From contig NZ_JAIUZI010000008.1 of NCBI RefSeq assembly GCF_020171285.1, forward strand, positions 62,001 through 126,000: a stretch of DNA of 64,000 nucleotides. The letters are read 5' to 3'. This document shows positions 36,400-52,024 of this stretch, piece by piece. The notes beneath the pieces were generated by a model. It saw nothing but the letters and a program-made list of their open reading frames with translations, had not been told where the DNA came from and ran no database searches. Source of the DNA: Seohaeicola saemankumensis. Lineage in GTDB: Bacteria > Pseudomonadota > Alphaproteobacteria > Rhodobacterales > Rhodobacteraceae. A program made the position numbers and the translations under genes. Positions within the stretch are counted from its first letter, which is position 1, and each line of letters opens with the position of its first letter.

Positions 36400-36428
36400 T
36401 TGACGCGCGCGGGGCGGAGGAGTATCAG
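36400..36428 (+). promoter_or_regulatory. Sigma70-type promoter of metZ
   Basis: TTGACG (36400-36405), a 17-base spacer, and TATCAG (36423-36428). The predicted start near 36435 is right at the 5' end of the SAM-II aptamer, which supports both calls. Confidence 0.65.
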
Positions 36429-36433
36429 GCGAG

Positions 36434-36487
36434 CTGTGGCGATTTGTTACCGGATTGCGGGCCACGTTAAAGATTCCGCTAAAAGGT
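36434..36487 (+). ncRNA. SAM-II riboswitch aptamer before metZ
   Basis: GTGGC (36436-36440) pairs with GCCAC (36461-36465). Between and after lie GATTTG, ACCGGATTGC, GTTAAA and CCGCTAAAAGG, which match the conserved bases of the alphaproteobacterial SAM-II pseudoknot. SAM-II controls metA, metX, metC and metZ homologues. It lies 72 bases before the metZ ATG, with a terminator-like stem between. Confidence 0.87.
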
Positions 36488-36494
36488 CAGGATG

Positions 36495-36546
36495 AAAGAC
36501 CCCTTTCGCTTGGCCGCGTCTGGGGTTTTTTTGTGCCCGAAAGGGG
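36495..36546 (+). promoter_or_regulatory. Attenuator with two competing hairpins downstream of the SAM-II aptamer
   Basis: AAAGACCCC (36495-36503) can pair with GGGGTTTTTT (36522-36531), giving an intrinsic terminator with a T-run. CCCCTTTCG (36500-36508) can instead pair perfectly with CGAAAGGGG (36538-36546), just before the GGAGG ribosome site of metZ. The two stems share CCCC (36500-36503), so they exclude one another. This could set termination against read-through or occlude the ribosome site. Confidence 0.6.
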
Positions 36547-36558
36547 CCGGAGGATAAG

Positions 36559-37749
36559 ATGAGCAAGACCTGGAACACCCGCACCCGCGCCGTCCATGGC
36601 GGCAGCCGCCGCAGCCAGTACGGCGAAGTATCGGAGGCGATTTTCCTGACGCAGGGCTTTGTCTATGACAGCGCCGAGGCCGCCGAGGCGCGGTTCATCG
36701 AATCGGGCGATGACGAATTCATATATGCCCGTTACGGCAACCCGACGGTGAAGATGTTCGAGGAGCGCATCGCCTCGCTGGAGGGGGCCGAGGACGCCTT
36801 TGCCACCGCGTCCGGCATGGCGGCGGTGTCCGGGGCGCTGACCGCGATGCTGAAGGCGGGGGACCACGTGGTGTCGGCCAAGGCGTTGTTCGGGTCGTGC
36901 CTCTATGTGCTGGAGGATGTTCTGACCCGGTTCGGGGTCGAGGTGACCTTTGTCGACGGCACCGACATGGACCAATGGCGCGCGGCGGTCCGGCCCGACA
37001 CCAAGGCGGTGTTCTTTGAATCGGTGTCGAACCCGACGCTGGAAGTGGTCGACATCCGCGCGGTGTCGCAGATCGCCCATGAGGTCGGCGCGCTGGTGCT
37101 GGTCGACAACGTCTTTGCCACGCCGGTGTTCTCGGACGCCATCGCGCAGGGCGCCGACGTGGTGATCTATTCCGCCACCAAGCATATCGATGGGCAGGGC
37201 CGCACGCTGGGCGGCGTGATCCTGGGCACGCGCGAGTTCATCCGCAAGACGGTGGAGCCCTACATGAAGCACACCGGCGGCTCGATGAGCCCGTTCACGG
37301 CCTGGGTGATGCTGAAGGGGCTGGAAACGCTGAGCCTGCGGGTCAACGCGCAGGCGGAAAACGCGCTGCGGACCATCGAGGCGGTGCGCGAGCATCCCGC
37401 GCTGGTGCGCGCGATCTACCCCGGCCATCCCAGCCATCCGCAGCACAACCTGGCGCTGGCGCAGATGGAAAAGGGCGGCACGGTGATTTCGCTGGACCTC
37501 AAGGGCGGGCAGCCGGCGGCGTTTACCTTTCTGAATGCGCTGAAGATCGGCAAGATCTCGAACAACCTGGGCGATGCCAAGACCATCGTCACCCATCCCG
37601 CGACCACGACGCATTCGCGGCTGACCGAGGAGCAGCGCGCCGAACTGGGCATCACGCCGGGGCTGGTGCGGGTGTCGATGGGGATCGAGGACACCGAGGA
37701 CCTGATCGGCGACATCGGTCAGGCGCTGGACAGCACGCTGACCGGATAG
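36559..37749 (+). CDS. metZ: O-succinylhomoserine sulfhydrylase
   Basis: A 396-residue PLP enzyme that makes homocysteine from O-succinylhomoserine and sulfide. The Cys/Met-metabolism signature is YSATKHIDGQGRTLGG with the PLP lysine at residue 208; SNPT at 157-160 and YARYGNPTVKMFEERIASLEG near 56 are family blocks. GGAGG is 5 bases before the ATG. It is controlled by a SAM-II riboswitch and lies alone. Cystathionine gamma-synthase/lyase relatives are possible, but the leader and sequence favour MetZ. Confidence 0.93.
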   Translation: MSKTWNTRTRAVHGGSRRSQYGEVSEAIFLTQGFVYDSAEAAEARFIESGDDEFIYARYGNPTVKMFEERIASLEGAEDAFATASGMAAVSGALTAMLKAGDHVVSAKALFGSCLYVLEDVLTRFGVEVTFVDGTDMDQWRAAVRPDTKAVFFESVSNPTLEVVDIRAVSQIAHEVGALVLVDNVFATPVFSDAIAQGADVVIYSATKHIDGQGRTLGGVILGTREFIRKTVEPYMKHTGGSMSPFTAWVMLKGLETLSLRVNAQAENALRTIEAVREHPALVRAIYPGHPSHPQHNLALAQMEKGGTVISLDLKGGQPAAFTFLNALKIGKISNNLGDAKTIVTHPATTTHSRLTEEQRAELGITPGLVRVSMGIEDTEDLIGDIGQALDSTLTG

Positions 37750-50971: not shown

Positions 50972-52024
50972 TCAGGAAATCCGGATGCGGGGGTTGAGGT
51001 AGACATAGCCGACGTCCGAGATCAGCTGTGTCAGCAGCACCACCACCACCGAGACCACCGAGATGCCCAGCAGCAGTTCGATGTCGTTGTTGCCTGCCGC
51101 CTGCACCAGCGCCCAGCCGAAGCCCTTGTAATTGAACAGGGTTTCGACGATCACCACGCCGTTCAGCAGCCAGGGCACCTGTAGCATGATCACGGTAAAG
51201 GGGGCGATCAGCGCGTTTCTGAGCGCGTGTTTCATCACGATGTTGGGAAAGCTGACCCCCTTGAGCCGGGCGGTGCGGATATATTGCGCGGTCATCACCT
51301 CGGTCATCGAGGCGCGGGTCATCCGCGCGATGTAGCCCATGCCATAGAGAGAGATGGTCAGCACCGGGAGGAAGAAATTTTCGAAATTGGCGTCTTTCAT
51401 GGCGCTGGCGGCGGTGCCCTTGAACCATTTCAGCCCGACCGCGGAGGAGGTGAAGATGGCGATGAAGATGACGCCCGAGACATATTCGGGCGTTGCGGTG
51501 GTGATGATGGAGAAGGTCGACAGGCTGCGGTCGGTGACCGAGCCTTCGCGCATGCCCGCCAGCACGCCGATCAGCAGCGCCGAGGGCACCATCAGCACCA
51601 GCACCCAGAACATCAGCTTGCCGGTCAGCCCGAGGCGGGTGCCGATGATGGTGCTGACGTCGTCCTTGAACACACGGGAATAGCCCCAGTCGCCCTGCAG
51701 GATACCGCAGTAGCGCGGCTCGGCGGCGGCCTCGCTGGCGGGTTTGGCGCCGATGAAGCAGCGCCCGGTGACGCCGTCCTCGCCGCTGCGGGTCCAGCCC
51801 GGCAGCACGCCGAGCCACTGGCCGTATTTCACCGGCAGCGGCTGCAGCAGCCCGTTGGCGTCGAGCCAGCTGGTCACCGCCTCGTCCGACATGCGGAAGT
51901 TGCCCTGGGTCTTGGCCAGTTTTTCGAGGTTCGGATAGAGGTTGGTCAGGAAGAAGACGATGAAGGTCAGGCAGAGCGCCGTGACGATCATCACCCCCGT
52001 CCGTCGCAGAATGAATAGTCCCAT
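50972..52024 (-). CDS. ABC transporter permease, OppB/DppB type
   Basis: A 350-residue membrane protein, first gene of the importer operon. MGLFILRRTGVMIVTALCLTFIVFFLTNLYPNL is the first segment; the cytosolic EAA region is QYIRTARLKGVSFPNIVMKHALRNALIAP. Between segments 1 and 2 it has an unusually long periplasmic loop (residues ~40-130, with CFIGAKPASEAAAEPRYCG). 16 bases separate it from the next permease gene. It is likely preceded by the operon promoter in the 52025-52297 region, where I find no confident -35/-10. Confidence 0.93.
   Translation of the reverse strand: MGLFILRRTGVMIVTALCLTFIVFFLTNLYPNLEKLAKTQGNFRMSDEAVTSWLDANGLLQPLPVKYGQWLGVLPGWTRSGEDGVTGRCFIGAKPASEAAAEPRYCGILQGDWGYSRVFKDDVSTIIGTRLGLTGKLMFWVLVLMVPSALLIGVLAGMREGSVTDRSLSTFSIITTATPEYVSGVIFIAIFTSSAVGLKWFKGTAASAMKDANFENFFLPVLTISLYGMGYIARMTRASMTEVMTAQYIRTARLKGVSFPNIVMKHALRNALIAPFTVIMLQVPWLLNGVVIVETLFNYKGFGWALVQAAGNNDIELLLGISVVSVVVVLLTQLISDVGYVYLNPRIRIS

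Follow-up and report, generated by a model that had tools for sequence, protein, structure and literature searches.

A SAM-II aptamer upstream of metZ in Seohaeicola saemankumensis, a conserved terminator and a candidate antiterminator that shares the P2 pseudoknot strand

The window, the whole 64,000-nucleotide stretch of Seohaeicola saemankumensis DNA analysed here, carries a metZ gene preceded by a SAM-II aptamer (Table 1). The aptamer was matched over its full length by the Rfam model RF00521 (SAM_alpha), with 59.4 bits against a gathering threshold of 36, and this match is the sole one in the genome. SAM-II is present in 159 of 198 genomes of the same family. As is usual for members of the class, the gene downstream (ATG at 36559-36561) is one of methionine synthesis. 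Both the P1 stem and the P2 pseudoknot (ACC with GGU 36485-36487, which we take to be the P2 strands from the general SAM-II pattern and from the sequence) can form, and 134 of 153 loci allow a P2-like 3-bp pairing. By its class, the aptamer would be expected to bind SAM. A sequence-only reading of this DNA had described a SAM-II aptamer, a terminator and a perfect 9-bp stem beside GGAGG in front of metZ; all of these elements are present, and the aptamer-to-ATG distance that it gave as 72 bases comes to 71 when measured from the last P2 strand, GGU. The metZ gene lies downstream of the aptamer in 170/170 pattern-positive loci, a set made up of 77 loci collected by metZ similarity, 92 collected by SAM-II searches and the window.

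Table 1. Coordinates of features in the metZ leader (window positions)
Feature	Position	Strand	Basis or remark
-35-like hexamer TTGACG, leader promoter	36400-36405	+	TTGAC position kept across loci
-10-like hexamer TATCAG, weak, 17-base spacer	36423-36428	+	read from sequence
SAM-II (SAM_alpha) aptamer	36426-36502	+	RF00521; P1 = GUGGC 36436-36440 / GCCAC 36461-36465
ACC, 5' strand of P2 pseudoknot	36449-36451	+	partner GGU 36485-36487
Antiterminator 5' strand, GGUCAGG-(A)-UGAAAG; GGU common to P2 (putative switching strand)	36485-36498	+	fold, conservation
Terminator 5' arm GAAAGACCCC	36494-36503	+	folds, conservation
Antiterminator 3' strand, CUUUCG and CUUGGCC	36503-36515	+	fold, conservation
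Inner terminator helix, CGC 36507-36509 / GCG 36516-36518	36507-36518	+	82.7% of cells paired, 70-row alignment
Terminator 3' arm GGGG and 7-T tract	36522-36532	+	sequence, folds, conservation
Small hairpin GCCC-GAAAG-GGGC directly 5' of Shine-Dalgarno	36535-36547	+	contains most of CGAAAGGGG as loop and 3' arm
Shine-Dalgarno GGAGG	36549-36553	+	sequence
metZ, O-succinylhomoserine sulfhydrylase	36559-37749	+	TIGR01325, 553.3 bits against a cut-off of 510.05

The two promoter-like hexamers would place the RNA start near 36434-36436, roughly where P1 begins. TTGAC was found 40-43 bases 5' of the aptamer GATTT 125 times over 163 loci, a count in which the upstream string of one locus (L048) had been wrongly cut at a contig end. 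This position agrees with that described for the SAM-II promoter in PMC1273637. A scan for consensus promoters reported none at the metZ leader. Elsewhere in the window, an Rfam Cis52_sRNA match (51217-51395, + strand, 139 bits) lies antisense inside an open frame (50972-52024, - strand) that by eye resembles an ABC transporter permease. PMC4809877 lists the Ruegeria pomeroyi cis52 RNA as lying antisense to a gene for an oligo/dipeptide permease, and the match in the window could be explained by conserved coding sequence.

For comparison across loci, the aptamer pattern matched 170 of 190. Eighteen of the 20 that it missed were re-read with a looser pattern, which matched 16; these were kept outside the 163 loci. 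By the same criterion as for the 163, a terminator was found in 12 of the 16, and one of the four without it (L059) had been matched at the wrong place. The main alignment holds 70 of 81 rows, the 81 being the window and its 80 nearest metZ relatives by protein similarity, chosen blind to structure. The rows dropped were eight identical platforms and three that lacked a pattern-positive aptamer, namely L058 (too short), L059 (an aptamer variant that carries an insertion) and L101 (in which no SAM-II was seen); one row retained, L093, ends at 58 bases, before its terminator 3' arm. A set of 82 rows that had been selected by the antiterminator was kept out of the alignment as circular. A search at genus level returned the window's own genome only.

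Several aptamer variants were seen in passing. A SAM-II variant that recurs in the family replaces the GATTTG after P1 with GCTTTG and was found in 14 of the 16 re-read loci (L132, L138, L157, L168, L171-L173, L176, L177, L184, L191, L024, L121 and L131). Ten aptamers (L044, L070, L071, L087, L090, L091, L095, L098, L048 and L059), many from Tateyamaria, have ∼15-50 extra bases between the P1 3' strand and the GCTAA core, and by eye this insert often seems able to form a hairpin of its own. In L101, from Pseudoruegeria sp. SK021, no SAM-II aptamer could be recognised within the 400 bases read 5' of metZ.

Both sequence and computed folds place an intrinsic terminator between the aptamer and metZ, as an attenuator of the OFF type requires. 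ACCCC (36499-36503) pairs with GGGGT (36522-36526) and leads into the seven-T tract (36526-36532), the stem extending to 10 outer pairs. A generic terminator scan did not report it, presumably because only loops of 3-8 bases were allowed. Among the 163 distinct family loci a terminator was found in 153, compared with 191 of 489 dinucleotide-shuffled platforms, 48 of which were as stable as the real one; the shuffle rate is presumably high because dinucleotide shuffles keep T runs. The remaining 10 of the 163 had no terminator by the criterion of the analysis. In the family loci, the distance between the first base of the GCTAA core and the onset of the T tract is 42-80 bases, with a median of 50. 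In the 70-row alignment, 86.1% of 613 terminator cells were paired, compared with 33.8-60.0% when the register was slid, and the covariation score was 0.124, compared with at most 0.081 in slid registers. Two of the five shuffle measures were not significant for the terminator (102 and 82 of 500 shuffles).

L045 has one SAM-II aptamer followed by two successive terminator-like ends of GGGG and a T tract, and one genome (G177) has two SAM-II copies ∼9 kb apart (L172 and L173), with terminators on both. Several tandem units of ∼28 bases with GACCCGAAGGGTC lie between the terminator and metZ in L160 (G079).

The bases that follow the aptamer core can also adopt a second fold, which is incompatible with the terminator and begins with the P2 strand itself. 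In the segment 36485-36517, GGUCAGG and UGAAAG pair with CUUUCG and CUUGGCC (-16.1 kcal/mol, z -3.03), and the loop, ACCC (36499-36502), contains most of the terminator's C run, so that CCCC is caged in the loop and the last pair. Over 36485-36561 with GGU free, this antiterminator fold is lowest at -31.7 kcal/mol, part of its edge being owed to a weak pairing between the T tract and the Shine-Dalgarno sequence, and a forced terminator reaches -26.2 kcal/mol. When GGU is blocked, the terminator wins at -26.2 kcal/mol. Likewise, in folds of a growing transcript without the first two GGU bases, the terminator takes over once its 3' arm has been made. In computed folds and in conservation, the leader thus has the other element of an OFF attenuator, an antiterminator that shares the ligand-controlled strand and excludes the terminator.

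In the 70 aligned platforms, 87.3% of 899 antiterminator cells were paired, compared with 26.0-59.7% in slid registers, and the covariation score was 0.177, compared with at most 0.122. None of 500 shuffles reached the true value on any of the five measures, and two-sided changes were found in 9 of the 13 pairs. However, on three measures a slid control does as well as the true register or better: the register slid by -3 also has 9 pairs with two-sided changes, and that slid by +1 has 30 cells with two-sided changes against 22, and 25 further pair types against 24. The support for the antiterminator is therefore drawn from the percentage paired and the covariation score.

Beyond the alignment, GGNNN finds a 5-bp partner within the terminator arm and loop in 104 of 153 loci, where 33.4 were expected. 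GG pairing in the lowest-energy structure is a poor test of the antiterminator, being seen in 105 of 143 segments and in 474 of 715 shuffles (10 of the 153 loci, with segments shorter than 18 bases, were omitted), and the 70-row alignment and the GGNNN pairing were used in its place. The segments were more stable than their own shuffles, with a median z of -1.89. By lowest fold, 90 of the 153 loci are of the caging type, 15 have GG paired without caging, and 48 are neither or unscored. In some loci of the last two groups, such as L006, GUC-GGG by eye pairs with the C run itself. A penalty of at least 3 kcal/mol follows from blocking GGU in 109 of the 153 loci, and in 85 of the 90 loci of the type-R set; because GG pairing was the criterion that defined this set, the second figure is to some extent built in.

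The sequence-only reading had placed the switch elsewhere: CCCCUUUCG would have two competing partners, one in the terminator and the other, CGAAAGGGG, by the ribosome site, and metZ expression would depend on which of them it paired with. The complementarity itself is real, as CCCCTTTCG (36500-36508) and CGAAAGGGG (36538-36546) match perfectly over 9 bp and CGAAAGGGG ends 2 bases from GGAGG. It is also rare by chance: a 9-bp Watson-Crick match to 36496-36517 arises in 0.6% of 20,000 shuffles of the leader, and 0.5% of shuffles contain a perfect 9-bp stem anywhere in the 81-base region. Among 140 loci, however, a 9-bp match was found only in the window and in L069 (0.2 expected), and the mean best Watson-Crick match was 4.06 bp, against 4.02 bp in shuffles. 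Of the two pairings whose conservation in relatives that reading had named as a check, the terminator is conserved and the 9-bp stem is not. Energetically the CCCCUUUCG/CGAAAGGGG stem is poor: at -18.9 kcal/mol it falls ∼12 kcal/mol short of the best fold for 36485-36561 and, with GGU blocked, ∼7 kcal/mol short of the terminator. Furthermore, CGAAAGGGG is made only after the termination point, so the stem cannot act as an antiterminator. The stem was thus rejected as the conserved alternative, and we regard a switch built on it as very improbable. The match looks coincidental, the GAAAG loop of the small hairpin happening to complement the CUUUCG that is conserved in the real antiterminator.

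The timing of the two folds bears on whether the terminator responds to SAM at all. For a transcript ending at 36529 the antiterminator is the lowest fold, and one base later, at 36530, the terminator is lowest whether GGU is free or blocked. This last result would also be expected if the terminator were independent of SAM, constantly lowering metZ expression and releasing a small RNA, and such independence has a reported precedent in the terminator that follows the metA riboswitch of S. meliloti (PMC9373788). A constitutive terminator would nevertheless leave a conserved antiterminator that shares the P2 strand without a purpose, and we consider this explanation improbable. The energies of the two folds differ little when the 3' end of the RNA lies within the T tract, so the choice between them must be kinetic, made during transcription.

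Control at the level of translation was considered in two forms. In the first, the aptamer itself would occlude the ribosome site, as in the Sargasso Sea metX SAM-II RNA. The aptamer class is identical and, without SAM, the most stable fold predicted for the full leader (36435-36561) pairs a CCGG that overlaps the Shine-Dalgarno sequence with a CCGG of the aptamer loop. That fold, in which the antiterminator is also present, accounts for 4% of the ensemble and has an unremarkable stability (z -1.29), and the CCGG pairing would hide the ribosome site in the absence of SAM, the reverse of an OFF switch. In addition, the Shine-Dalgarno sequence is neither inside nor next to the P2 strand, as it would be in the metX type, but starts 62 bases past the last P2 base, with the conserved terminator in between. 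Direct occlusion of the ribosome site by the aptamer therefore seems hardly credible here.

The second form is a translational layer added to attenuation, in which the hairpin of the read-through mRNA would fold the used T tract onto GGAGGA as a weak anti-Shine-Dalgarno. A hairpin adjacent to the Shine-Dalgarno sequence was found in 60 of 99 loci, and in 45 of 65 of the nearest set, compared with 591 of 1980 shuffles, the enrichment being judged against shuffles alone; under a slightly different definition there were 51 different stems in 76 loci. At least four predicted pairs between the T tract and the Shine-Dalgarno sequence occur in 59 of 103 loci, with 31.5 expected from shuffled leaders, but the median gain from this pairing is only ∼2 kcal/mol, compared with 1.3 kcal/mol in shuffles. 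The two-step switch that had also been proposed thus finds weak hints in this hairpin, in the T-tract pairing and in the pairing of the Shine-Dalgarno sequence with the aptamer loop, and we judge an additional translational layer to be distinctly unlikely.

Transcription attenuation, which the sequence-only reading had likewise suggested, is the best reading of the leader, because the terminator is conserved and the conserved antiterminator shares the strand that SAM would control. We think it very likely that the leader is a SAM-II OFF switch acting on metZ in this way, judging from the elements present, their conservation and the calculated flip of the fold when GGU is blocked; SAM binding, co-transcriptional timing and actual termination at this leader are inferred. 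The transcript would begin close to the 5' end of P1. At low SAM, GGUCAGG and UGAAAG would pair with CUUUCG and CUUGGCC as these emerge, before the GGGG of the terminator exists, and the antiterminator so formed would cage CCCC and let the polymerase read through into metZ. With SAM bound, ACC would hold GGU in the P2 pseudoknot, and the antiterminator would lose its closing pairs. AAAGACCCC could then pair with GGGGUUUU to form the terminator, and transcription would end at the T tract, giving an RNA of ∼98 bases (36435-36532, from the predicted start).

The closest known system is the metZ SAM-II leader of S. meliloti, for which SAM-driven termination was predicted and an RNA of ∼100 nt, more abundant in rich medium, was detected by Northern blot (Scheuer et al. 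2022, PMC9373788). It shares with the window the aptamer class, the gene and the predicted SAM-driven terminator, and the size of its sRNA, RZ, is close to the ∼98 bases expected here. The caging layout of the antiterminator in the window is typical of its nearest relatives. The A. tumefaciens metA element (PMC1273637) defines the aptamer, with P1, a P2 pseudoknot and a possible promoter just 5' of P1, but belongs to another gene in another species. In the Sargasso Sea metX RNA (PMC10907184), which has only the aptamer class in common with the window, the ribosome site is occluded inside P2, whereas here it lies far downstream. SAM binding is best understood mechanistically for this compact metX RNA, which is probably translational (PMC9373788).

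The metZ leader is therefore not an unusual SAM-II layout, as had been supposed from the premise that the class usually acts on translation start; that premise fits the best-studied metX RNA but not the usual alphaproteobacterial arrangement. Corbino et al. 2005 (PMC1273637) described putative terminators between P2 and the gene in many SAM-II representatives. According to Barrick and Breaker 2007 (PMC2258182), SAM-II in alpha- and beta-proteobacteria reaches the expression platform via the distal pseudoknot and most often appears linked to terminators, the general class to which the window leader also belongs. In Leyn et al. 2014 (PMC4239095), SAM_alpha is given for 14 of 15 Rhodobacterales genomes, on our reading of a flattened table, with metY, taken to be the same enzyme as metZ, as the core target. 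Terminator-linked SAM-II is thus already known. The passages of the literature that were searched gave no earlier account of this antiterminator in Rhodobacterales. What the leader chiefly adds is the antiterminator that cages the C run in the nearest relatives, which gives the terminator-linked layout a precise, testable fold switch.

Among the 30 best-scoring class-level matches, the core was present in 29 and a terminator in 25. The P2 strand can pair over at least 5 bp with the terminator 5' arm or loop in 21 of these 25, one of the loci (L209) being an artefact of a misplaced P2 strand. This is consistent with the switch but is not proof of it, as the shuffle values for single loci are weak (mean 0.25). 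In other alphaproteobacteria the P2 strand often resembles a copy of the terminator 3' arm, and direct pairing to the 5' arm is then open to it, whereas in the nearest relatives of the window it pairs beyond the 5' arm and cages it. Caging and direct pairing would then be two solutions to one task with one aptamer, which makes their comparison worthwhile.
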